This document shows, piece by piece, positions 11,509 through 64,000 of a stretch of DNA of 64,000 nt. The stretch's first letter is position 1; each line of letters opens with the position of its first letter. The notes beneath the pieces are model-generated. The model was not told where the DNA came from. It saw only the letters and a program-made list of their open reading frames with translations, and searched no databases. A program made the position numbers and the translations under genes. The stretch is from Paenibacillus sp. OV219 (GTDB taxonomy: Bacteria; Bacillota; Bacilli; Paenibacillales; Paenibacillaceae), in NCBI RefSeq assembly GCF_900110075.1, contig NZ_FOCJ01000002.1, positions 310,001 to 374,000 on the forward strand, read 5' to 3'.

Positions 11509-12236
11509 GCTCTCACACCTGCCCCGTAGTAGATGAACGCTTCTTCGATGGTCGAAGTACCGCTCTTCTCTTTAATAGCAGCAGGCGAGCCGAGCGCGGT
11601 TAGCTTGCCGTCGCGGATGAGGCCTAGCCGATCGCATTTCTCCGCTTCGTCCATGACATGTGTTGTCAGAATGATTGTCGTTCCGCGTTCGCGCATCGCG
11701 CCGAGCTCGTGCCAGATCGATTGTCGGAGAACCGGGTCAATGCCGACAGTCGGCTCATCCAGTATGAGCAGCTCTGGTTCGTGAAGCAGTGCAAGCGCAA
11801 GCGACAAGCGGCGTTTCATCCCGCCGGAGTAGGCGGAAACGGTCTTATTCAGATCGTCCTGCAAGCCCACTATAGTCATCGCGTCCTGAATGCGGGAAGT
11901 GAGCCGCTTACCTTTCAGCCCGAAGAGGGAGCCGAAGAACGTTAAATTCTCCTTGGCTGTCAGCTCGTTATAAAGCGCATCGGACTGTGCCATGTACCCG
12001 AAGCGCTGTAGCATGGACAGCTTTGGCATCCGCTCGCCCAGCATGACGACACTGCCGCCATCTACCTTATCAATGCCGGTGATTAGCTTAATAAGTGTTG
12101 TTTTGCCCGAGCCGGACGGACCGAGCAGGCCTAGAAGTTCGCCGCGCTCGACCTCAAAGGAGATGTCGTCGAGAACGGTTTTGCTGTCGAAGCGGCGCGT
12201 AATGTTACGGACTTGCACGATTGCTTGTGCACCCAT
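11505..12236 (-). CDS. ABC exporter ATP-binding protein
   Basis: A 243-residue nucleotide-binding subunit of the DrrA/CcmA type. Walker A is GPSGSGKTT (39-47), then the Q-loop FGYMAQSDALY, the ABC signature YSGGMKRRLS, Walker B LLILDEPTVGIDP and the switch histidine in ILTTHVMDEAE. It pairs with the overlapping permease downstream and powers export of an unknown, possibly toxic, compound. Transcription starts in the divergent region that holds two TetR-type palindromes. Confidence 0.92.
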   Translation of the reverse strand: MGAQAIVQVRNITRRFDSKTVLDDISFEVERGELLGLLGPSGSGKTTLIKLITGIDKVDGGSVVMLGERMPKLSMLQRFGYMAQSDALYNELTAKENLTFFGSLFGLKGKRLTSRIQDAMTIVGLQDDLNKTVSAYSGGMKRRLSLALALLHEPELLILDEPTVGIDPVLRQSIWHELGAMRERGTTIILTTHVMDEAEKCDRLGLIRDGKLTALGSPAAIKEKSGTSTIEEAFIYYGAGVRA

Positions 12237-12270
12237 GACATGTTCACATCCTTGAATTGGAGTTATAAAA

Positions 12271-12334
12271 TGAGTGATTACTCACATTGATATTAACTTG
12301 ATATCCATTACTTGTAAAGTGAGTAATCACTCAC
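12271..12334. promoter_or_regulatory. Twin palindromic operators, probably for the TetR regulator
   Basis: Two near-identical 16-bp dyads, ATGAGTGATTACTCAC (12270-12285) and GTGAGTAATCACTCAC (12319-12334); the second is the reverse complement of the first at 15 of 16 positions. They lie in the 220-base gap between the divergent ABC exporter and RND pump genes. Dyads of this length with GAGT/ACTC arms are typical TetR-family sites, and the ABC operon ends with a tetR gene. The assignment to that TetR protein is inference. Confidence 0.75.
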
Positions 12335-12455
12335 TACTTGTCTCAAGACGCATCCGCGCCTCCGTCTTAGGTCGGGGATAAAGACTGGTCTAGAGACGTT
12401 TACACATTACTAGCGAATTAGGTATTCTTTAACAAGGAGTTCTGAGGAGAACCAT

Positions 12456-15400
12456 ATGAGAGGGGAAAGAACAGCAATGCAATGGATTACCAAATGGGCT
12501 TTCAATAACAAAGCCGCAATGAAGCTAGTAGTGCTTATGGCACTCGTAATGGGGGTCATCAGTTATTACCGTCTCCCGATGGAGTTTCTGCCTGAAGCCG
12601 ACAATCCGATGGTAACAATTGCCGCGATTGGGCCTGGCTATGATGCCAAATCAATGGAGACTGAAGTAACAGCGAAGATTGAAGAGGCTGTGCAATTCGT
12701 AAAAGGGAAGAGCCTCATGACTTCGTCATCTGGTAACGGTTTCTCGAAGATCGATCTTTCATTTGACTCAAAAACGAATATGAAGGACGCGAAAGCAGAG
12801 GTTGAAGCAGCTGTTCGCTCCGTGCAGCTTCCTGAACGTGTTATGACACCATATGTGGTGCAATTTAACACCTCGATGATTCCGATCTCTTGGGTATCGA
12901 TCAATCTTGACGGTATCAAAGAAGCAGACCGCGAGAAAGCGGAGAAGGACGTTATCAACGCGTTCAAGAAAGTGGACGGCGCAGGCGACGTATCGCTCGG
13001 CGGCAAATCGACACCAAGCATTACAATTACGCCAGACGCGGCTAAGCTCTCAGCCAAAGGCGTACCATTCCAAGCACTTATGGGCGTTCTGCAAAACCGC
13101 GGCGTAGCAGCTTCAATCGGTGAGAAAACGATCGATGGCGCTTCCGGTAACATTAACGTAGAAGCTACGATTAACGATCTGGATACACTTCGCAAGCTGC
13201 CTGTCGCTGAAGGTATTACACTTGACGATGTAGCTGATGTACAGCCCCAAAATCAACTGGAGAGCATCAGCAGCCTTGATGGCAAGAACGTGCTTATGCT
13301 TACTATCTCTAAAACAGCTGATGCCAATGCTGTTAAAGTCGGCGATGGCGTTCAGGATGAAGTAGACCGCCTGAACAAAGAAATGAAGGGCGTCGACATT
13401 AAAGTGCTATCGAGCACATCTGAGCAAGTTGTACAATCCGTAAACTCGATGCTTCGTGAAGTATTGATGGGCGCATTGTTCGCCACAATCGTTATCCTGC
13501 TGTTCATGCGCAACCTGCGCGCTACACTCGTAACGATCGTATCGATTCCCCTTTCACTAGGTATTACATTGTATTTGCTCCAAATGTCCGGTATTACGCT
13601 TAATATCATCACACTTGGCGGTGTTGCCGTTGCAGTAGGCCGTCTCGTCGACGACAGTATCGTCGTTATCGAGAACATTTATCGTCGTCTGCAGAAAGAG
13701 CAATTCTCTGTTCAGCTCATTATGGATGCAACCAAAGAAGTGGCAACAGCAATCACTTCTTCGACACTTGTAACGGTAGCCGTATTCCTGCCGATGGGCT
13801 TGCTCCGCGGTTCGCTGCAAGCGTTCCTGCTTCCTTTCGCACTGACAGTGACGTACTCGCTTCTGGCATCCTTGCTGGTTGCACTTACAGTCGTGCCGAT
13901 CTTGAGCGCAGTGCTGCTGCGTAATACGAAGATGAAGGAGCATGAAGGCTCCAAACGTTTCGCAAACTTCCTTGGTTGGAACTTGCAGCACAAATGGGTG
14001 CCCCTCTTAGTTGCAGTTCTACTGTTGGGCGGTTCGGTTGGTGCATACATGTCGATGCCGAAAGGCGCAATCGACTCATCGAACGTACAGAATTTGAACA
14101 TTACACTGGAATATCCAAGCGATACGCCGCATGACAAAGTAATAGAAGAGGGCCGTAATCTTGAGAAATTCATTAGTGCCCGCGATGATATCGACTGGGC
14201 GCTGATGCAGAACGGCAACAGCTCAGACGGCGCGAAATACGGTGAAGTTTCTTCGCCGACACTCGTAACTTACTTGGTTGATATGAAAGACGGCGCGGAT
14301 GCCGATAAGCTCATCAATGACATCAAGGCGCAGCGTCCTTCGTATCCTGGTGCTGACCTGAATGCCGGTGCGATGGATTTCGCAGGCGGCAGCAGCTCGA
14401 CACAAATTTTGGTTGACGTTACAGGTGATGACCTAGACGCTATTGCGAAAGGCGCAGATCAAGTCATTGCAGCCATTAAACCGGTGAAAGACGTCATTAA
14501 AGTAAAATCGAACCAAGAACAGAAGAAACCGGTTTATACGTTCCAAATGGATCCACTGAAGTCTAAAGGCGGCGAAGTGGCACAGCAGCTGCAAGGCATG
14601 CTGAACCCGATCCCGCTCGGCACTGTAGACATTGATAATCGTGTAACTAGTGTGATTCTGCAGCCTTCGGTTGATCCGAAGACAGAAGCTGATTTGAACA
14701 ATCTCACAATAATGACCGCACAAGGCCCAGCGCCGGTATCTTCCGTTGCGAAGATTGTGAAGACAGAGCAAGCAAGCGTGTTCTACCACAAAGACGGCAA
14801 AGCGTACGTTCGTGTAATGGCTGACGTCGAGCCAAGCCAATTGTCGATCGTCGGCAAAGAGATTACGAAGAAGGTCGGTGAGCTGAAAGCACCGGATGGT
14901 GTCAAGTTTACCGTTGGCGGCGCATCGGCAGACCAATCATCTGACTTCGCAGATCTCGGCATCATCATGATGATCGCAATCGGTATCGTATACTTGATCA
15001 TGGTTGTTACGTTTAAGACTTTGCGTGCACCGCTTGCCATCCTATGCTCGCTGCCACTTGCAGCAATCGGCGCAGTGGTCGGCTTGATCGTATCGAATAT
15101 CTCGCCTGACTTCACAGCCGTATTCGGCGCATTAATGCTTGTCGGAATTGTCGTAACGAACGCGATCGTACTCATCGACCGCGTGAAACAGAACGAGCAG
15201 CACATGACGATCCGCGAAGCGCTGATCGAAGCGGCAACAACGCGTGCTCGTCCGATTCTGATGACGGCAATCGCTACGATCTCCGCGATGCTGCCACTTG
15301 TATTCGGCTCCTCCGAGAGCGGAAGCATCGTATCGCAAAGCCTCGCGATCGTCGTAATCGGCGGTCTGGCAGCAGCGACATTGCTCACTTTGCTGATTGT

Positions 15401-43206: not shown

Positions 43207-44472
43207 ATGAGGCGGTGGTTGATTCGTAACGTGATGCTCGTTGCTGTTGTTCTGCTATCCATGCTTGCACTACTGCCCGTTGCAGCAATAGCAGCAGGGG
43301 CCGAGCCGGGGGAACTAACGGAACAGTTGGAACAATCGGCGGCATCGAAGCCAGATACCGATAACAACGCATCGGATGTGAATGCTGCGCTTGCGAATCA
43401 ACAGCTGAAAGGCGTCAACACGGAAGCGGTTGAGGATTACTGGAACAAGCTGATGAAGGAGTATAGCGGCTTCTTCCCGGATAACGAGGTGCCAAGCTTT
43501 GCTGAAATGGTCATGCCAGGCGGTGAAGGACTCAAGCTGACAACGGTGCTCTCGGGCTTGCTGAGGTACGTGCTGCACGAAATCCTTTACAATGGCAAGC
43601 TGCTTGTAACGATCGTCATTCTGACCGTATTCAGCATGATGCTGGAGACGATGCAAACCGCGTTCGAGCGCAATACGGTGAGCAAAGTGGCTTACAGCAT
43701 CACCTATATGGTCATGATCGTGCTGGCGGTCAACAGCTTCAACGTCGCAATCGGTTACGCGAAGGATGCCATCACCGGAATGATTCAGTTCATGCTCGCG
43801 ATGGTGCCGCTGCTGCTGACACTGCTCGCCACGATGGGGAGTGTTGTTACTGTATCGGTGCTGCATCCACTCATTATCTTCATGATCAACGCGGTTGGCT
43901 CTATCATCTACACGGTCGTCTTTCCGCTGCTGTTCTTCTCGGCCGTGCTTCATATTGCAAGTGCCGTGTCGGATAAGTTCAAGGTAACGCAGCTGGCGAA
44001 TGTGCTTCGGAGCTTCAGCGTCGGGCTCATGGGCATTATGCTGACCGTGTTTCTCGGCGTCATCTCGGTGCAGGGCGCGACAGGCTCGATTACAGACGGC
44101 GTTACAATGCGGACGGCGAAGTTCATCACAGGCAACTTCGTGCCGGTCATTGGACGAACCTTCTCCGATGCGGCCGATACGGTCATGTCAGCCTCACTGC
44201 TCGTCAAGAATGCAGTTGGAATTGCTGGTGTCGTAATCATTTTGTTCCTCTGTGCATTCCCTGCTGTGAAGATTATGACGCTCGCTCTCATCTACAACGT
44301 ATCCGCCGCCATCATGCAGCCGCTCGGCGATAGTCCTATCGTGACTTGTCTGCAGACGATCGGCAAAACATTAGTTTATGTCTTCGCTGCTCTCGCCGCA
44401 GTCGGACTTATGTTCTTCCTGGCCATCACAATCGTGCTTACAGCAGGTAATGCGGCGGTCATGATCAGATGA
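43207..44472 (+). CDS. spoIIIAE: Stage III sporulation protein AE
   Basis: A 421-residue polytopic protein, the largest membrane subunit of the SpoIIIA complex. It has a signal-like first helix (about 7-28), a hydrophilic stretch to about residue 115, and then about eight helices. Conserved parts include GLLRYVLHEILYNGKLLVTI and SFSVGLMGIMLTVFLGVISV. The ATG at 43207 is chosen since GTAGGGAG lies 9 bases upstream; the in-frame TTG at 43198 abuts that site. Confidence 0.94.
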   Translation: MRRWLIRNVMLVAVVLLSMLALLPVAAIAAGAEPGELTEQLEQSAASKPDTDNNASDVNAALANQQLKGVNTEAVEDYWNKLMKEYSGFFPDNEVPSFAEMVMPGGEGLKLTTVLSGLLRYVLHEILYNGKLLVTIVILTVFSMMLETMQTAFERNTVSKVAYSITYMVMIVLAVNSFNVAIGYAKDAITGMIQFMLAMVPLLLTLLATMGSVVTVSVLHPLIIFMINAVGSIIYTVVFPLLFFSAVLHIASAVSDKFKVTQLANVLRSFSVGLMGIMLTVFLGVISVQGATGSITDGVTMRTAKFITGNFVPVIGRTFSDAADTVMSASLLVKNAVGIAGVVIILFLCAFPAVKIMTLALIYNVSAAIMQPLGDSPIVTCLQTIGKTLVYVFAALAAVGLMFFLAITIVLTAGNAAVMIR

Positions 44473-44497
44473 AGCACGTGTTGCAGGAGGGGTTCAC

Positions 44498-45262
44498 ATG
44501 CTGAACTGGCTTGCCGTATGGCTTCAGCAAATTATCGCGGTTGTGTTGCTGGCGGGCTTTATCGACTTGCTGTTGCCGAACAAAGCGATGCAGCGCTATG
44601 TGAGGCTCGTCGCAGGGCTGATCATTTTGCTGACGATCTTAACGCCGATCATCCGGCTGCTCCAAGGCGACTTCAACGCTAGGCTCGATCAACAGGTGGA
44701 TAACTGGTTTCAATCCACGAATAACAATCAGTTCCACATGCCGACGCTGGAGGATATTCAAGAAGATGCCAAGAAGCTTCAGGATCAGCAGAAAGCCTCT
44801 GCCTTGGCGCTGGTGGAGCAAAGACTTGGCTCGTCGATGAAAGAAAGCATTTCAGAAGCTACCGGTCTGCAAGTGGCGGCGGTTGGTGTGAAGCTGACAG
44901 CCGCAAACACCATTGATCAGGCGAGAATTGAGTCGGTCGTGGTGACACTAGCGAAGCTGGTGCCGGAAACGGAATCCGAATCCGAATCAGAGGATGACTC
45001 AAAGGCGACAGGAGATTCCAAATCGGCGAATGAAGTAAAGCCTGTCGATGAGGTTGAAGCTATCGAAGTTACGGTGCAGCCGATGACAGATCAGTCAGCG
45101 GGTTCACCGGGATCAACGAATGCATCCGATAGCCAGGAGGAGCAGCCAGCTAGCAGTGAAGTGGCCGCGGCTGTGAGAGAAGTTCTACGGCAAGAGTGGA
45201 GCGTAAACCCGAAGCGAATAGAAGTGATGCAGCAACAAGCGGATGCTGAATCGGCACAGTAG
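44498..45262 (+). CDS. spoIIIAF: Stage III sporulation protein AF
   Basis: A 254-residue membrane protein. Two N-terminal helices (IIAVVLLAGFIDLLLPN and YVRLVAGLIILLTILTPIIR) are followed by an extracytoplasmic ring-building domain. The domain is interrupted by an acidic, low-complexity insert of about 55 residues (from ETESESESEDDSK to ASDSQEEQPA), which makes the protein longer than the roughly 200 residues I expect. It ends in REVLRQEWSVNPKRIEV. Confidence 0.93.
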   Translation: MLNWLAVWLQQIIAVVLLAGFIDLLLPNKAMQRYVRLVAGLIILLTILTPIIRLLQGDFNARLDQQVDNWFQSTNNNQFHMPTLEDIQEDAKKLQDQQKASALALVEQRLGSSMKESISEATGLQVAAVGVKLTAANTIDQARIESVVVTLAKLVPETESESESEDDSKATGDSKSANEVKPVDEVEAIEVTVQPMTDQSAGSPGSTNASDSQEEQPASSEVAAAVREVLRQEWSVNPKRIEVMQQQADAESAQ

Positions 45263-45277
45263 GGAAAGGGGAGAGCG

Positions 45278-45919
45278 ATGTTGGCCAAATGGCTGGATGG
45301 GCTGGAGTCAACGTTTGGGGGCGGCCGCGGTGGGCCGAAGCGGATGAAGTCACTGCGCTGGCTGCTTATACTCGGTGGGATCGGAGTCGCACTTGTCATC
45401 ATGAACTCTTTTCTCAACTATAGCCAAGTACCTGCTTCTGACCAGCAAACCACATCCTCTAGTACACCGCCGACCGATCCTGCTTTCAACAATAGCAGCA
45501 AATCGGACAGCCCTATCGCTGACATTGAGCATTCGCTGGAGAATCGGCTGAAGGAGATTTTGGAGATGGTCGTTGGGGTCGGTACTGTGGATGTACTGAT
45601 TACGGTAGACTCCACCGAGGAAACAGTCGTGCAGCTCAACGAGAAGGAATCGCAGCAAATTACGAATGAAAGCGACAAGAATGGCGGCAAACGCACCGTG
45701 ACCTCCCTCACGAAGGAAGGTCAAGTGGTGCTTTACGATACATCCGGCGACAAAGCGCCGATCATTGTGAAGAGACTTCAACCCAAGATTCGCGGCATTC
45801 TAATCGTTGCGAAAGGCGCAGAGAACGGTACGGTAAGACGGCTCATTGTCGACGCTGTCGAGAAGGGCCTTAATGTTGCGGTCAACCGAATCTCGGTTAT
45901 TCCCCGCAAACACCAATAA
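45278..45919 (+). CDS. spoIIIAG: Stage III sporulation protein AG
   Basis: A 213-residue single-pass protein whose extracytoplasmic ring-building motif assembles a large ring in the intermembrane space. The helix is LLILGGIGVALVIMNSFLNY (about 28-47). A Ser/Thr/Pro-rich stretch then leads to the ring domain with IEHSLENRLKEILEMVVGVG, VDVLITVDSTEE and LIVAKGAENGTVRRLIVDAV. Confidence 0.94.
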   Translation: MLAKWLDGLESTFGGGRGGPKRMKSLRWLLILGGIGVALVIMNSFLNYSQVPASDQQTTSSSTPPTDPAFNNSSKSDSPIADIEHSLENRLKEILEMVVGVGTVDVLITVDSTEETVVQLNEKESQQITNESDKNGGKRTVTSLTKEGQVVLYDTSGDKAPIIVKRLQPKIRGILIVAKGAENGTVRRLIVDAVEKGLNVAVNRISVIPRKHQ

Positions 45920-46919: not shown

Positions 46920-47408
46920 ATGTTTAAGCTGAGCGAGATTAAAGAATTGATCAAGCTGGTTGACGGTACTTCTGTACATGAACTTGAAATTGAAAACGAT
47001 GGCGCACGCCTGATGATTCGTAAACCAGGTAAAACAGAAGTGGTGAATGTACAAGCCGCGTCAGTCGTTCCTACATATACGCAGGCTTATCAGCCACAGG
47101 TGAACGCACCGGCTCCGAGCCAACAACAGAGCGCGCCAGCGCCAGAACAGCCGGCACCAAATGAGAACTACCACCAAATTCTATCGCCGATGGTAGGGAC
47201 GTTCTATAGCGCGTCTTCGCCAGAAAAAGCACCTTTCGTAAACGTGGGCGACCGCATCAACGAGAAATCGATCGTATGTATTCTTGAAGCGATGAAGCTA
47301 ATGAATGAGCTTGAAGCGGAAGTTCGCGGCGAGATCGTCGAGATTCTCGTTGAGAATGGTCAGCTTATCGAATTCGGGCAGCCGTTGTTCCTTGTTAAAC
47401 CGGAGTAG
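46920..47408 (+). CDS. accB: Acetyl-CoA carboxylase biotin carboxyl carrier protein
   Basis: A 162-residue carrier subunit. The N-terminal helical part is MFKLSEIKELIKLVDGTSVH, a Pro/Ala/Gln-rich linker spans about 50-80, and the biotinyl domain (about 85-162) carries the biotin lysine K126 in EAMKLMNE. It shuttles carboxylated biotin for malonyl-CoA formation, the first step of fatty-acid synthesis. The ATG has TAGGAGTG 6 bases upstream. Confidence 0.96.
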   Translation: MFKLSEIKELIKLVDGTSVHELEIENDGARLMIRKPGKTEVVNVQAASVVPTYTQAYQPQVNAPAPSQQQSAPAPEQPAPNENYHQILSPMVGTFYSASSPEKAPFVNVGDRINEKSIVCILEAMKLMNELEAEVRGEIVEILVENGQLIEFGQPLFLVKPE

Positions 47409-47465
47409 CATTTGACGCGAAAGGGCCAACAAGAACATAGCGTGCACGAAAGGAGCAGTTTATCC

Positions 47466-48824
47466 GTGAAATTCAACAAAATTTTGATTGCAAATCGTGG
47501 TGAGATTGCCGTACGTATTATTCGCGCTTGCCGCGAGCTCGGCATTCAGACCGTTGCTGTATATTCGGAAGCCGACCGTGAATCGCTTCACGTGCGTCTG
47601 GCAGACGAAGCTTATTGTATTGGACCTGTCTTATCCAAGGACAGCTACTTGAATCTGACGAACATTATGAGCGTTGCAACATTAACCGATTGCGATGCTA
47701 TCCACCCGGGCTACGGCTTCTTGGCGGAGAACGCGGATTTCGCTGAAATTTGTGAGTCTTGCAACGTGACCTTTATTGGTCCGTCCCCACAAGCGATTAA
47801 TAAAATGGGTGATAAAGCGGTTGCGAAATTAACGATGAAGCAAGCGGATGTGCCTATTATTCCTGGCTCTGATGGCCTCGTTGAGGATATGGACGATGCA
47901 ATTCGCGTCGCTCGCGAGATTGGTTATCCGGTCATTATTAAAGCGACTGCAGGCGGAGGCGGCAAAGGCATCCGGATTGCAGAAAATGAAGATAATCTCA
48001 TTTCGCAAATTTCGACGGCTCAGCAGGAAGCGCAGAAAGCCTTCGGCAACGCCGGCGTTTACCTTGAGAAATATTTGACGGGCATGAAGCACGTTGAAAT
48101 TCAGATTATGGCTGACAAGCACGGCAACGCCGTTCACTTGTTCGAGCGTGATTGCTCCGTGCAGCGCCGCCGCCAGAAGCTTGTTGAGGAAGCACCTTGC
48201 CCCGTTCTTAGTCCGGCACTTCGTGAGCGTATGGGCCAGGCTGCTGTACGAGCTGCTCTTGCCGTTAATTATTCCGGCGCAGGTACGCTTGAGTTCCTGC
48301 TTGGACCAGACGGTAACTTCTATTTCATGGAGATGAACACTCGTATTCAGGTTGAGCATCCTGTAACCGAAATGATTACAGGCGTTGACTTGATTAAAGA
48401 GATGATTTCTGTTGCGGAAGGCAATGAGCTTTCCATTAAGCAAGAGGACTTGAAGATTAACGGCTGGTCGATCGAATGCCGCATTAACGCTGAAGATTCG
48501 GAGCGTGGTTTTATGCCGTCGCCAGGTACGATTCAATTCTACTTGCCTCCAGGCGGTTTGGGCGTTCGTGTTGATAGCGGCGCGTACCCGGGTTACACCA
48601 TTTCCCCTTATTATGATTCGATGATCGCGAAGCTGATCGTCTGGGGAGCAACGCGTGAAGATGCGATTGCCCGGATGAAGCGGGCGCTTGCTGAATTTGC
48701 CATCGATGGCATTAAGACGACGATTCCGTTCCATATGAAGCTCTTGAATCATCCGAAATTCCTGAAAGGCAATTTCGATATTAAGTTCTTAGAGGATAAT
48801 GATATTAACAATCCTGTAGAATAA
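47466..48824 (+). CDS. accC: Acetyl-CoA carboxylase biotin carboxylase subunit
   Basis: A 452-residue ATP-grasp enzyme that carboxylates biotin on AccB. It starts [20 protein letters not shown] and contains the glycine-rich ATP lid [18 protein letters not shown] and metal-binding [20 protein letters not shown]. The carboxylase C-terminal domain ([20 protein letters not shown]) follows. The GTG at 47466 follows GAAAGGAG, 57 bases after accB. The pair sits directly before yqhY, as in B. subtilis. Confidence 0.96.
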
Positions 48825-60280: not shown

Positions 60281-60310
60281 GAATCAGGGAATGTTTTTGG
60301 CGACATAAAA
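60281..60310 (+). promoter_or_regulatory. Candidate sigma-G/sigma-F promoter of spoIVB
   Basis: GAATC (60281-60285), 18-base spacer, CATAAAA (60304-60310) approximates the forespore consensus GnATR-N18-CATnmTA. B. subtilis spoIVB is expressed from a forespore promoter. The match is imperfect. Confidence 0.35.
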
Positions 60311-60396
60311 CAGTAGGGGCAGGGATAACTTAAAGGTACGCAAATGGCGAACCACCTTTCTCGTCAAGCGATTTTGCAACAGGGAGCGTGAAGTCA

Positions 60397-61767
60397 TTGA
60401 ATGCCAATCAGCGGAAGCGGTGGCTAGGTCTACTTCTCGTTATCATCGTTTGCATGCTTGGTCTATCCTCTCCACTTCAACATTTCGCCGCATTTCCGAA
60501 CGAGGTTCGTTTGTTCTCCGGCCAGTTGAAACAATTAGACTATGGTATGCCTGTACATGCTCAAGTGACCGTTGATTCGCAAATGCTGCGTGTAAACGGC
60601 TCAACTGATCGTTCACTTTCAATTAATTTGAACAAGCCACTCTCAATTGAATCATCACAAAGCGGCAAAACAACGATGAAATTGAAATTATTCGGCAAAA
60701 TTCCTTTCAAAACCGTTCGAGTAAACGTTGTACCGGATTTGCGTGTCATTCCGGGTGGACAAACGATTGGTGTTAAAGTGAAATCTGCAGGCATTATGGT
60801 TGTCGGTCATCATCAGGTAGTTGATGCGAAGGGCACTAAAGTATCCCCAGGCGAGCAAGCGAAGCTGCAACTGGGTGATCTCATCGTTCGTATTAATGGC
60901 AAGTATGTAAACGAAGTGCATAAGGTAGCAGAAATGGCGGAGGAAGCTGGTGACACGAAACAACCGCTTCATTTGACAGTGAAACGGGGATCGCGATTAT
61001 TCGATACGAAGCTCCTTCCTGTGTTTGATTCTGAAGATCGCGCTTGGCGATTGGGGTTATATATTCGTGACTCCGCAGCTGGTGTTGGTACATTAACGTT
61101 CTACGCTCCAGATCAAGGCGTTTATGGCGCACTTGGACATGTTATTACAGATATGGATACCCAAACACCTATTGAAGTGGGCGAAGGACAGATTCTGCAA
61201 TCTAACGTGACTTCAATTAACAAGAGCCAGAACGGCGAGCCAGGCGAGAAGAGAGCGCAGTTCGTGAAGGAAAGCAAAGTACTTGGCAATATTGAGCGGA
61301 ACACGTCATTTGGCATTTTCGGTAAAATGAAGGAGCTGCCTTCACATAGCTATAACGATCAATCGATTCCTGTTGCTTTCGCTGAAGAAGTGAAGGAAGG
61401 ACCTGCCCAATTGCTTACGGTTGTAAACGGACAGAAGGTTGAGCGGTTTAATGTAGAGATCGTTCATGTAACGAAACAGCAATCTCCTGCAACTAAGGGG
61501 ATGGTAATTAAGATTACAGATCGCCGTTTGCTGGAGCAAACAGGTGGCATTGTTCAAGGGATGTCGGGAAGCCCCATCATTCAAGATGGCAAACTGATCG
61601 GCGCTGTAACTCATGTATTCGTTACACCTAATACACCCACTGGACAATGCAGTAATACTGGCGATTCACAAAGCAGTGATCAAGCAACGAAAACAAAAGA
61701 GTGCGGCATAAAATATCTCACACAGCGTTATAAAGGTTGTCTACAATGGGCAACCTTTTTTTGTTAG
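60397..61767 (+). CDS. spoIVB: SpoIVB sporulation protease, 3' end replaced by foreign sequence
   Basis: SpoIVB is secreted by the forespore and cleaves SpoIVFA to release pro-sigma-K processing. Residues 1-409 fit the family. The signal anchor is LGLLLVIIVCMLGLSSPL, and the PDZ domain spans about 115-200 (GGQTIGVKVKSAGIMVVGHH and KLQLGDLIVRINGKYV). The S55 peptidase domain has GALGHVITD (His248) and GGIVQGMSGSPIIQDGKLIG (Ser390). After AVTHVFV, where the family continues with roughly 25-30 residues around a GYGV-IEWML motif, the frame instead reads TPNTPTGQCSNTGDSQSSDQ and stops after 47 novel residues, then a terminator. The full catalytic core is thus kept. The TTG at 60397 is 10 bases after GGGAG; the in-frame GTG at 60388 is too close to that site. 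I read this as insertion of an element into the 3' end. Confidence 0.9.
   Translation: MNANQRKRWLGLLLVIIVCMLGLSSPLQHFAAFPNEVRLFSGQLKQLDYGMPVHAQVTVDSQMLRVNGSTDRSLSINLNKPLSIESSQSGKTTMKLKLFGKIPFKTVRVNVVPDLRVIPGGQTIGVKVKSAGIMVVGHHQVVDAKGTKVSPGEQAKLQLGDLIVRINGKYVNEVHKVAEMAEEAGDTKQPLHLTVKRGSRLFDTKLLPVFDSEDRAWRLGLYIRDSAAGVGTLTFYAPDQGVYGALGHVITDMDTQTPIEVGEGQILQSNVTSINKSQNGEPGEKRAQFVKESKVLGNIERNTSFGIFGKMKELPSHSYNDQSIPVAFAEEVKEGPAQLLTVVNGQKVERFNVEIVHVTKQQSPATKGMVIKITDRRLLEQTGGIVQGMSGSPIIQDGKLIGAVTHVFVTPNTPTGQCSNTGDSQSSDQATKTKECGIKYLTQRYKGCLQWATFFC
61605..61626 (+). other. Candidate attachment site (dyad at the spoIVB junction)
   Basis: TGTAAC (61605-61610), 10 bases, GTTACA (61621-61626): a perfect 6-bp inverted repeat centred on the last codons of authentic spoIVB, exactly where family similarity ends. 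Dyad symmetry across the crossover is usual for site-specific recombinase att sites. The second att copy would lie outside the window. Confidence 0.45.
61732..61763 (+). terminator. Terminator ending the spoIVB fusion transcript
   Basis: Hairpin AAAGGTTG / CAACCTTT followed by TTTTTG, overlapping the last codons of the fused frame. It separates host transcription from the element. Confidence 0.88.
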
Positions 61768-61771
61768 GTCG

Positions 61772-61800
61772 TTGACAGTGCAAAGTATTTGACGTATAAT
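61772..61800 (+). promoter_or_regulatory. Strong promoter at the element's left end
   Basis: TTGACA (61772-61777), 17-base spacer, TATAAT (61795-61800), both hexamers perfect. The spacer contains TGCAAAGTATTTGACG (61779-61794), nearly repeated at 62958-62973 in the next element promoter, which suggests a shared operator. Confidence 0.88.
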
Positions 61801-61833
61801 TTAAAACAATAACAACGAAGGAGATTGAACAGT

Positions 61834-62517
61834 GTGGCAAACCGCAAAGGTTTAGGAGTATCTAAGAAATACACGAAGGGGTCTGTTCACGAAACAGCTA
61901 CCGGTAGGTTCGTGGTGCTGGATCGGTTCGCTGAAGAAGATGATGAGAAGAATACCCCAATGCTTGAGTTGCAGTGGTTGTCAGGTGACAAAGAAGGTAA
62001 GACAGAAGTTAACCGTGAAATGAATATGGCTGCAAGTATACATAAGTTTCAATCTAGTCGAGGGTTACCAACTATAACAACAGAAACCAGAATGATTGAT
62101 GAAGAAATAACCTTTGTTGAAAAAATAGACAGACTTTTTAGTATATGCTCAAACTTACAAGACCATTTTGCTTACGATGCTTTAAAGGTCGAAAGAATAA
62201 ATCAAACACTCGATGAAGTTCATGGAATCAAAAGATACATAGATAATGCATCAGCTTCTATAATGGGAAATAGTAATAAAGTCGGTGAAATGATGAAAAA
62301 TGTATTCGAAAGTGTTACAGCTAATGGACAAGGTTTAGAAGAAGCAATGACAAAAATTCAAACATTAAATGCGGTAGTCAGTGATCAACGGGAAACAATC
62401 TCCCAGTTAACAGAAACTGTTAATAAGCTACTTCAACATAGTACAGTGGTGGTTAAACAACAAGAAACCATGTCAATGCAACAAGCAATATTGAATAAAC
62501 TAATTGAAAAATTATAA
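61834..62517 (+). CDS. Phage-like coiled-coil protein, unknown
   Basis: A 227-residue protein in AT-rich DNA. The N-terminal part (KKYTKGSVHETATGRFVVLD, then MLELQWLSGDKEGKTEVNRE) looks like a small beta-domain of a type seen in phage hypothetical proteins. The remainder (about 85-227) is alpha-helical and Gln/Thr/Asn-rich with heptad-like runs (RINQTLDEVHGIKRYIDNAS and ETISQLTETVNKLLQHSTVV). The GTG at 61834 is 10 bases after AAGGAG. First gene of the element, read from a perfect promoter 34 bases upstream. Confidence 0.75.
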   Translation: MANRKGLGVSKKYTKGSVHETATGRFVVLDRFAEEDDEKNTPMLELQWLSGDKEGKTEVNREMNMAASIHKFQSSRGLPTITTETRMIDEEITFVEKIDRLFSICSNLQDHFAYDALKVERINQTLDEVHGIKRYIDNASASIMGNSNKVGEMMKNVFESVTANGQGLEEAMTKIQTLNAVVSDQRETISQLTETVNKLLQHSTVVVKQQETMSMQQAILNKLIEKL

Positions 62518-62529
62518 GGGGTGACAGTA

Positions 62530-62691
62530 GTGAGCAATAAACTTAGAGAGTTGGTACAAGTTAACGGAGCACTTGAAAACATAGCCCACACACTGGATAT
62601 ATTCGGACACAATGATGTATTAGTTGACCAGATGATGAAGTTGATCACAGAACGTGACCATTTAATGTCACAGATCAAGGTGTTGAACTAA
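62530..62691 (+). CDS. 53-residue helical-hairpin protein, unknown
   Basis: Starts GTG AGC, 6 bases after AAGGGGTG, and ends at a TAA whose last A begins the next gene's ATG. The sequence (VSNKLRELVQVNGALENIAH, then LDIFGHNDVLVDQMMKLITE) predicts two helices joined at FGHND. The layout is like Spo0E-type phosphatases, but the SQELD signature is absent. A small phage protein is the safest call. Confidence 0.6.
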   Translation: MSNKLRELVQVNGALENIAHTLDIFGHNDVLVDQMMKLITERDHLMSQIKVLN

Positions 62692-62891
62692 TGAGATACA
62701 TACTAGCAATCGTGTTTCCACCACTAGCTGTCCTGTTGTGCGGTAAACCTGTCCAGTTCCTTCTGAATTGCATTCTACTGTTCTTCTTATGGATACCAGC
62801 TGTGATCCACGCCTTTGCTGTGGTAGCCAACCACAAGGCTGAGAAGCGTAATGACAAACTGATCAGAGCTATCAGAGGTGAACCAATGTAA
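62691..62891 (+). CDS. YqaE/Pmp3-like small membrane protein
   Basis: A 66-residue protein with two helices. ILAIVFPPLAVLLCGKP and FLLNCILLFFLWIPAVIHAF reproduce the UPF0057 (YqaE/Pmp3/stress-induced membrane protein) pattern. In other organisms this family affects membrane potential under salt or cold stress. Start ATG overlaps the preceding stop (TAATG). Carried by the inserted element. Confidence 0.8.
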   Translation: MRYILAIVFPPLAVLLCGKPVQFLLNCILLFFLWIPAVIHAFAVVANHKAEKRNDKLIRAIRGEPM

Positions 62892-62914
62892 GCTGCTGAA
62901 TAGTAGTAAACAGA

Positions 62915-62946
62915 AAAGTCCTTGCCAAGTGTAGGGGCTTTTTTAT
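62915..62946 (+). terminator. Terminator of the first element operon
   Basis: Hairpin AAAAGTCC / GGGGCTTTT with a 12-nt loop and TTTTTTATTT tail. Confidence 0.8.
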
Positions 62947-62997
62947 TTGACGTTTAATGCAAAATACTTGACGCAAAGTGTTTAACCGTGATAATAT
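62947..62997 (+). promoter_or_regulatory. Second element promoter with shared operator-like module
   Basis: TTGACG (62968-62973) and an ATAATAT -10 (62991-62997), spacer 17-18. TGCAAAATACTTGACG (62958-62973) matches the module at 61779-61794 at 14 of 16 positions; another TTGACG lies at 62947-62952. Confidence 0.65.
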
Positions 62998-63016
62998 CTT
63001 GTCAGGGGGTGGAGAC

Positions 63017-63184
63017 ATGTACTGGATAGATCTTCTTACAATATTATCGCTGATCATGATTGGTTTGATTGTACTCTACAGAGGGACGGTGAAAAGAGAT
63101 GGAAAGACTAGAAATCGATATCATTCATCAACTGTTTGGGCTTGGGGTCAGCAAAGAGGAAGTACTGGAATTCATAAGAAGTGA
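63017..63184 (+). CDS. Small membrane protein of the element
   Basis: A 55-residue frame with one N-terminal helix (WIDLLTILSLIMIGLIVLYR) and a basic tail. The ATG has a strong GGGGGTGGAG site 3-4 bases upstream. The second half overlaps the next frame in another phase, so the tail sequence may be constrained by two genes. Confidence 0.5.
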   Translation: MYWIDLLTILSLIMIGLIVLYRGTVKRDGKTRNRYHSSTVWAWGQQRGSTGIHKK

Positions 63185-63248
63185 CGGTAAAATGCCAGAT
63201 AGAGATATAACATTGACCGAACAAATAAAAGAACAAGGTGATACATAA
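63099..63248 (+). CDS. 49-residue protein of the element
   Basis: ATG after GGGACGGTG. The sequence (MERLEIDIIHQLFGLGVSKE, then EVLEFIRSDGKMPDRDITLT) resembles short helix-turn-helix-like anti-repressor or sporulation inhibitor (Sin/Sda-size) proteins in size and composition, but I recognise no family. It overlaps the preceding frame by 86 bases and is followed at once by a terminator. Confidence 0.55.
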   Translation: MERLEIDIIHQLFGLGVSKEEVLEFIRSDGKMPDRDITLTEQIKEQGDT

Positions 63249-63278
63249 GAAGGGGATAACAACCTCTTCTTTTTTTGT
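63248..63278 (+). terminator. Terminator of the second element transcript
   Basis: Hairpin AGAAGGGG / CCTCTTCT (one bulge) with TTTTTTT. Confidence 0.78.
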
Positions 63279-63298
63279 GCATCTATATGGTGGCTCAT

Positions 63299-63720
63299 AT
63301 GGGCTGTTTTAAGACGTTCTATATTAGATGGTATGAATACAGGGGGAACTGTGTGCAACGTCTTAGAATCAATCCTACGAGGTCTCATGTGGGTATAGAC
63401 AGGGTGTGGGTAGTGGGCGGTCAATGAATGAAACAAACTGGGACAACATGTGCACAGGGGTAACAGTAGTGTGGGCACCATTGGTATGTACACAGGGCAA
63501 GCACACGGGCAAGGGTAGTAACAATATGTACAGGGGTAGGCAGGATGATAGAGCAGTGCTAGGACATAACACTAATTGAATGACTGATATTATAATCGTT
63601 GACACATCGGGGTACATACACATAGTCCATTCCTTGTACAGTGTTGATGATTGACCACAATAAAATGACACAGGGTGGGGCACCCATATACCAGTACTGT
63701 GCAGCAGCTGTGACATAGTA
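63299..63720 (+). other. Chain of tiny overlapping frames in G-run-rich DNA
   Basis: Four short plus-strand frames follow each other: 63299-63427 (42 aa), 63424-63579 (51 aa, sharing ATGA with the previous stop), 63580-63654 (24 aa, directly abutting) and one of 23 aa beginning near 63648. None has a good ribosome site except by coupling, and none resembles a known protein. The same stretch contains at least six ACAGGG words between about 63335 and 63680 and few C-runs on the plus strand. It may be small phage genes, or a non-coding RNA or binding-site array. Confidence 0.3.
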
Positions 63721-63898
63721 GAAGGTCATTTAGATAGGTAACCATACATCATTACTTTAACACAGTGAAGTATAGACGTATCAACGCATTAACGCTGTGA
63801 CGATTTAGCCCCCCGCCTCGCACTAACGAAAAGTTAGCGACCCGCCTACGACCGCACCTGCCTATAAGAACAAAAAGTTCTCCCCAAATCCACCATGG
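63721..63898. other. Non-coding stretch with small hairpins
   Basis: No gene seen. Short hairpins CTAAC-GAAAA-GTTAG (63822-63836 region) and AGAAC-AAAAA-GTTCT (63868-63883 region) flank a C-rich, G-poor patch (CCCCCCGCCTCGC). Purpose unknown. Confidence 0.3.
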
Positions 63899-63913
63899 TG
63901 ATAATGATTATCA
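63899..63913. promoter_or_regulatory. Perfect 7-1-7 Fur box
   Basis: TGATAATGATTATCA is an exact inverted repeat of the Fur-site core (TGATAAT-N-ATTATCA). It is followed by two GAGAAT words (about 63916-63921 and 63927-63932). The iron-regulated target would start just beyond the window or be a small product (a 21-codon frame runs 63931-63996). Confidence 0.7.
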
Positions 63914-64000
63914 ATGAGAATGTACTGAGAATGGCAGTGACAAGGGCTGATTACCATTTCCGAAAGGTAATGCAGGGGATCAAAAAGTGGCTGTAACCCA

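Follow-up and report, generated by a model that had tools for sequence, protein, structure and literature searches.

The stretch of DNA considered here raises the question of why, in Paenibacillus sp. OV219, the sporulation gene spoIVB stops resembling its family shortly before its end, and why spo0A is not found beside it. This stretch, hereafter the window, comprises 64,000 nucleotides of contig NZ_FOCJ01000002.1 (labelled C27; the window is C27:310001-374000) from a draft assembly (G000) of 6.10 Mb in 38 contigs. Coordinates given without a contig label are window positions on the + strand. An initial annotation had proposed that a prophage- or skin-like element interrupts the gene. The interruption is due to a complete-looking prophage, integrated through the large serine integrase that it encodes into a bacterial attachment site (attB) inside the 3' end of spoIVB; its precise excision, performed in silico, would restore the full SpoIVB reading frame.

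Architecture of the Insertion

The 5' part of spoIVB (60388..61614) comprises codons 1-409, encoding the PDZ domain and most of the S55 peptidase domain. Its product matches TIGR02860 (E 5.5e-147, profile positions 4-383 of 402). The family match ends at V412 (61623), where the initial annotation had placed it (~61623), and 47 unrelated residues follow up to a stop codon at 61765-61767. This phage-side tail of 47 codons plus stop (61624..61767) replaces the last 32 spoIVB codons in the lysogen. The left edge of the prophage is formed by the left attachment (attL) core, GTATTCGTTA (61615..61624). The same 10 bp, shared by the two junctions, recur outside the window at the right attachment site (attR; C27:414445-414454). 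Measured from core to core, the element is 42,830 bp long, with an in-window share of 61615..64000 and a remainder extending to C27:414444.

Extension of the contig to the right had been set as the test, with a spoIVB 3' end, spo0A, and a serine recombinase gene as the items to look for; all three were found ~43 kb downstream. The large serine integrase gene (C27:412730-414520), the last bases of which are host DNA, and the remaining spoIVB 3' end precede spo0A (C27:414779-415594). The missing 3' end thus lies directly upstream of spo0A, 42,830 bp downstream of the break. The only Spo0A_C match in the genome (C27:415259-415570) falls inside this spo0A open reading frame (ORF), in agreement with the earlier remark that the gene is missing beside the broken spoIVB.

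Joining the host flanks at the core in silico yields an in-frame SpoIVB of 444 residues, which aligns over residues 1-444 with that of the relative G001 at 99% identity. At the DNA level, the joined flanks form a single alignment of 4,115 bp with G001 (90.7% identity, 9 gap openings); since they are collinear with this relative, the insertion pattern is not a product of chance. The matching att cores and the in-frame join bear out the proposal that a phage-derived element lies inside spoIVB.

Integrase and Attachment Sites

The integrase possesses Resolvase, Recombinase, and Zn_ribbon_recom domains, an arrangement typical of large serine recombinases, and its gene reaches into attR. Because the gene spans the phage attachment site (attP), the protein has one C-terminal tail in the lysogen, where the gene terminates in host DNA with HRYSLMILHPVMDALSSGCCRMPEYC, and another in the circle assembled in silico, where it continues into phage DNA and closes with HRYSLHLIHPLDNAVILAIHKAVIKQRKQKSAA. 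The DNA of the latter end, including its stop codon, occupies 61616..61711, where it overlaps the tail of the truncated spoIVB in another frame. Integration would in this way trade 3' ends, spoIVB gaining the 47-codon phage tail and the integrase a host-derived one. Phage Mx8 provides another case of an attP located inside the integrase gene. The PHROG match covers integrase residues 7-538 of 596 and the swapped tail lies beyond this conserved part, so that both forms, of lysogen and circle, may be active.

The attP site displays an imperfect dyad, as expected for serine integrases, with 15 of 26 positions paired at the best of 24 centres tried, namely the first dinucleotide of the core (GT); the best dyad in attB reaches 10 of 26 positions. 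Ahead of the integrase stands a sigma-A-type site (TTGTCA-17-TACGAT with TG, 9/12, L007:1370-1398), which would be compatible with ordinary phage control, although the integrase stretch contains 8 such promoter-like sites versus 7.9 in shuffled sequences. A scan with four sporulation sigma motifs returned 0 sites in the prophage (shuffle means 0.2-1.0) and also missed the control upstream of spoIVB, which deprives this negative of weight.

Prophage Content and Relatives

Of the 70 ORFs that a script lists in the stretch, some perhaps spurious, 68 belong to the prophage. Half of the prophage ORFs (34/68: 4 at the left end and 30 others) were scanned against PHROGs. The packaging, head, and tail families recognised are the small and large terminase subunits, the portal, the head maturation protease, the major head and tail proteins, and the tape measure protein; endolysin, both ribonucleotide reductase subunits, DNA polymerase, primase, and the integrase were also found. 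Packaging, head, tail, lysis, replication, and integration are therefore all represented among the prophage genes, as in a temperate tailed phage. The element looks like a complete temperate prophage and not like a decayed, skin-like remnant. The typical phage modules are located beyond the window.

Within the window, a terminator-like hairpin occupies 61732..61758; the initial annotation, too, had mentioned a terminator. The U-tract of the hairpin (61756-61762) immediately precedes the stop codon that closes the truncated spoIVB frame; the stretch holds 6 terminator-like sites versus 2.4 in shuffles. A sigma-A-type promoter match, TTGACA-17-TATAAT (61772..61800), precedes the left prophage ORFs. 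It agrees with the consensus at 12/12 positions, despite which the left-end stretch counts 10 promoter-like sites versus 8.4 in shuffles. The four ORFs that follow encode a protein of 227 aa with weak matches to coiled-coil families only (61834..62517), a protein of 53 aa with no function assigned (62530..62691), a Pmp3-like small membrane protein (62691..62891; PF01679, phrog_38199), and a protein of 49 aa with only a sub-threshold SinI match (63099..63248). They had been described as small AT-rich phage-like genes. Of the four, only the Pmp3-like protein is recognisable, and the AT-richness is only mild (45.1% GC in the prophage versus 50.1% in 10 kb of the left flank). The prophage also carries a tRNA-Phe (GAA) gene at C27:375233-375308 (L005:3933-4008).

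Searches for relatives of the integrase returned none besides itself in 394 family genomes at E 1e-60, none in genome_contigs, and a single record in viral_contigs (IMG/VR). In two comparisons, covering 8,116 and 7,791 bases, this record is identical to C27; it appears to derive from the same strain, hence it is not independent proof. In the phage collection, 666 records match the integrase, all below 60% identity (23-25% among the 25 matches listed), and the left-end DNA of the prophage has no match there. Four other virus records carry a related terminase (79, 77, 72, and 47% identity); no related integrase was found in these four, which may be fragments. A metagenomic virus record bearing the spoIVB 3' motif (L174, IMGVR_UViG_3300048919_000251) was rejected as a further case, as the portion of spoIVB that it covers is unbroken and contains no insertion at that motif. 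In this record the 5' end of spoIVB is cut by the record end, and spo0A is present, followed by genes that by eye resemble those of phages; a different phage thus seems to be inserted immediately after spo0A.

Consequences for SpoIVB

Truncation after V412 removes 32 residues of SpoIVB, 16 of which are invariant among 39 relatives (37 of 80 named loci plus 2 others). The Ser loop (GMSGSP) and T408-H409 of the THV motif, located at or before the junction, are retained. In the chymotrypsin fold, the strand and helix that follow the catalytic serine are part of the domain core. Because these post-serine elements belong to the core, the truncated protein would lose its function, and SpoIVB, having lost the final conserved stretch of the peptidase domain, is probably inactive as long as the phage is integrated. 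The solved chain 9lnf includes the segment equivalent to the lost C-terminus and carries a Ser-to-Ala change. To judge from the Ser-to-Ala change, 9lnf is probably the structure of PMC12502668, in which all residues of the SpoIVB construct were modelled. At the level of the message, the in-frame stop (61765-61767) lies past the U-tract, and spoIVB transcripts ending there would therefore be without a stop codon. The truncated mRNA thus probably ends before its stop, which would make its product a likely target of tagging by transfer-messenger RNA (tmRNA).

Both parts of spoIVB have diverged from G001 almost exclusively at synonymous positions. The 5' part shows 89 synonymous and 6 non-synonymous codon changes (non-synonymous divergence, dN, 0.008; synonymous divergence, dS, 0.41); the 3' part shows 11 and 0, respectively, or 12 and 1 when compared with G021. 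The upstream block CAGGGAATGTTTTTGGCGACATAAAA (60285..60310), perhaps the promoter region of spoIVB, is intact; in an alignment of 16 sequences, each of its columns shows either no variation or a conservation of at least 90%. These counts indicate that both parts have been under strong purifying selection since the split from G001, and spoIVB would therefore have been functional during nearly all that time. Either the insertion would be recent or excision would keep spoIVB useful; the selection data fit both.

Probable Excision and the Fate of the Lysogen

The account that we consider probable is that of a 42.8-kb temperate phage residing in the attB of spoIVB and excising by ordinary induction or spontaneously, SpoIVB being off while the phage is integrated. 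In B. subtilis lacking spoIVB, pro-sigma-K is not processed (PMC12251134). The lysogen would likewise probably be unable to activate sigma-K or to complete sporulation unless the phage excises. In B. subtilis, moreover, SpoIVB is made in the forespore (PMC12251134); if this holds here, the chromosome of the forespore, or that present before septation, must be repaired. As the repair must reach the germ line, the lysogen would sporulate only by way of germ-line excision, or else not at all. Excision would most likely occur by ordinary induction or spontaneously, and spores would arise mainly from cells or forespores from which the phage has excised. A dedicated switch triggered by sporulation would also be possible, although spontaneous or induced excision is judged likelier.

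Several points weigh against this account. The joined attP and attB sequences match only the two integrated junctions in the assembly. The scan of 34 of the 68 prophage ORFs brought to light neither a CI-type repressor nor a recombination directionality factor. The insertion was found in one strain only among the genomes searched. The forespore expression of spoIVB is taken from B. subtilis, and its sigma control is assumed to be alike in this strain. Both structure models, one for a relative with an intact SpoIVB and one for the tailed protein, are poor, the mean predicted local distance difference test scores (pLDDT) being 56.4 and 53.9; from residue 411 on, both average at most 32 per ten-residue block, which leaves the models uninformative about the C-terminus. 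The active-site residues named in PMC12502668, which discusses His236, Ser378, Thr393, and Asp363, all lie upstream of the junction. Finally, SpoIVFA is also acted on by another forespore protease, CtpB (PMC12251134), which may cover part of the SpoIVB role and makes a bypass conceivable.

A developmental switch appears unlikely. In this reading, the phage would leave spoIVB in the course of sporulation, as happens with skin and SPbeta, and would do so either within the forespore or prior to septation. The switch overlaps in anatomy with the preferred account, hence the likelihoods expressed here need not sum to one. The phage would leave the germ line, its circle persisting in the spore or being lost. 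The precision of the in-frame restoration, the purifying selection on both spoIVB parts, and the precedents of sigK, spsM, spoVFB, gerE, and yabG (PMC10747680, PMC4191935) speak for such a switch. However, skin and SPbeta are excised only in the mother cell; since this cell dies, the spore keeps the phage (PMC4191935). Moreover, the site ahead of the integrase is of the sigma-A type, in a stretch with hardly more such sites than its shuffles, and a single strain is concerned.

It is quite unlikely that the insertion is a dead end, with an asporogenous lysogen and a phage that is defective or locked in. The lack of an excised junction in the assembly and of the phage in any other genome searched would agree with it, but the integrase frame and both att sites are intact, the main modules are present in the scanned half of the ORFs, and spo0A as well as a full-length sigK are retained. 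That the truncated, tailed SpoIVB is active enough for the insertion to be tolerated and excision to be unneeded is very doubtful. Retention of the Ser loop, of the THV motif, and of His236, Ser378, Thr393, and Asp363 (PMC12502668), together with the overlapping function of CtpB (PMC12251134), would allow it, while the 16 invariant positions among the 32 lost and the probable non-stop message argue against it. An assembly chimera can be practically dismissed, since, even though the assembly is a draft of 38 contigs, the junctions sit within a contig of 772,862 bp, both flanks are collinear with G001, the integrase lies at attR, and the att cores match.

spoIVB in Other Genomes

In the genus, spoIVB is present in 22/22 genomes and unbroken in 21/22, the exception being the strain studied here. 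A SpoIVB match was found in 378/394 family genomes (E 1e-10). No second spoIVB insertion was found in the 394 family genomes or in 398 phylum genomes, among the matches listed; split genes whose 3' end goes undetected could have been overlooked there. In the family survey, every match listed except that of G000 reached at least query residue 434, and the other genomes were judged by their number of matches; the phylum survey considered the matches listed, genomes with weak best matches being left unopened. G729, whose match ended at profile position 381 of 402, was rejected as a second insertion because the rest of the gene follows directly in another frame. This frame shift (G729 C1:1729731-1729813), at almost the same codon as the insertion, reflects a sequencing error or a real pseudogene. 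Five family genomes with two SpoIVB matches, as well as G338, were also rejected, their pieces being adjacent or overlapping in other frames or lying at contig ends. In the family genus "g17" (G375-G390), 16/16 genomes have no SpoIVB match at E 1e-10, one of them (G381) giving only a weak profile match (E 1.5e-5), whereas the other 378/394 genomes match; this genus has perhaps lost or replaced spoIVB.

A Second Split Gene: sigK

Outside the window, the native sigK of the same genome is split at about codon 68. Its 5' piece (C27:11566-11775) and 3' piece (47010-47522) lie 35 kb apart (L140, L141), with a serine recombinase-like ORF (43946-45577, by eye) between them. A complete, divergent sigK (11823-12521) directly follows the native 5' piece. 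Taken together, the native halves share 93.6-99.1% identity with sigK of 15 genus members in which the gene is intact, but 87.1% with the complete copy. This copy is 88.4-96.1% identical to sigK of G001, G021, G010, G006, and G019, which share only 85.0-87.1% identity with the native halves. It looks as if the interrupting element brings its own sigK, which would take over the function. The sigK element differs from the spoIVB prophage, so that this one strain has recombinase-bearing insertions in two genes of the sigma-K pathway. In G004, G006, G009, G010, G012, G013, G017, G018, G019, and G020, partial sigK copies, often starting from residue 62 or 63, accompany a complete copy or stand in its place; G017 has no complete sigK among the matches listed. 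These copies suggest that sigK has been hit by insertions repeatedly in the genus and is a hotspot for them.

Farther along C27, a host ORF of 353 aa (C27:428310-429371) starts with repeated STRQNKLAKHFFAPTKVGAVDITSEGAGIPNENDFGRRP units.

Comparison with Known Elements and Implications

The element lies inside a sporulation coding sequence, is bordered by direct repeats, gives back the frame upon joining in silico, and has a serine recombinase gene near one end, as sporulation-gene intervening elements do. By anatomy, as read from its sequence, it belongs with the prophages that split sporulation genes. The comK prophage of Listeria is a phage regulatory switch, or active lysogeny, in which excision restores a split host gene; the prophage in spoIVB resembles it in splitting a host gene that excision would restore, here seen from sequence alone. 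Elements are also known in other sporulation genes, namely vfbin in spoVFB, a mother-cell gene, gin in gerE, and yin in yabG. The genes gerE and yabG are mother-cell genes as well, which distinguishes them from spoIVB, and gin is without phage genes (PMC5595907). Like the present element, yin is known from one strain, in which both its integrated and its excised form are present throughout (PMC10747680). SPbeta in spsM of B. subtilis is similar in that it, too, is a temperate prophage in a sporulation gene, with a serine recombinase and in-frame restoration. However, spsM is under sigma-K and SPbeta excises in the mother cell only (PMC4191935), whereas SpoIVB is a forespore product in B. subtilis. 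The skin element in sigK of Bacillus and Clostridioides likewise uses a serine recombinase and splits a gene of the sigma-K pathway. In contrast to the complete-looking phage found here in the gene of a sigma-K-activating signal, B. subtilis skin is cryptic (PMC4191935) and resides in a sigma factor gene. With SpoIVB made in the forespore, if B. subtilis is a guide, and skin and SPbeta excised only in the mother cell, the skin analogy would be weaker than it appears.

The initial annotation held that spoIVB is not one of the classical targets. It is indeed absent from the list of sigK, spsM, spoVFB, gerE, and yabG in the excerpt of PMC10747680, and no spoIVB interruption was reported in the titles and abstract openings surveyed in the open PubMed Central subset. 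With respect to this list and this literature, spoIVB is a new target.

A prophage in a forespore gene departs from the mother-cell rule set out in PMC4191935, and makes this rule testable. The options are excision in the germ line, excision before septation, or a non-sporulating lysogen in which spores select for phage loss. The locus further provides a serine integrase whose attB is defined, as well as an example of host gene and integrase gene swapping their 3' ends. In a rather improbable extension of these options, the phage would be programmed to leave the inherited chromosome, each viable spore would either be cured or hold the phage as an extrachromosomal circle, to be re-integrated at germination, and the phage would control whether the sigma-K checkpoint opens. 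If true, passage through the spore would double as a step of phage exit or transfer.

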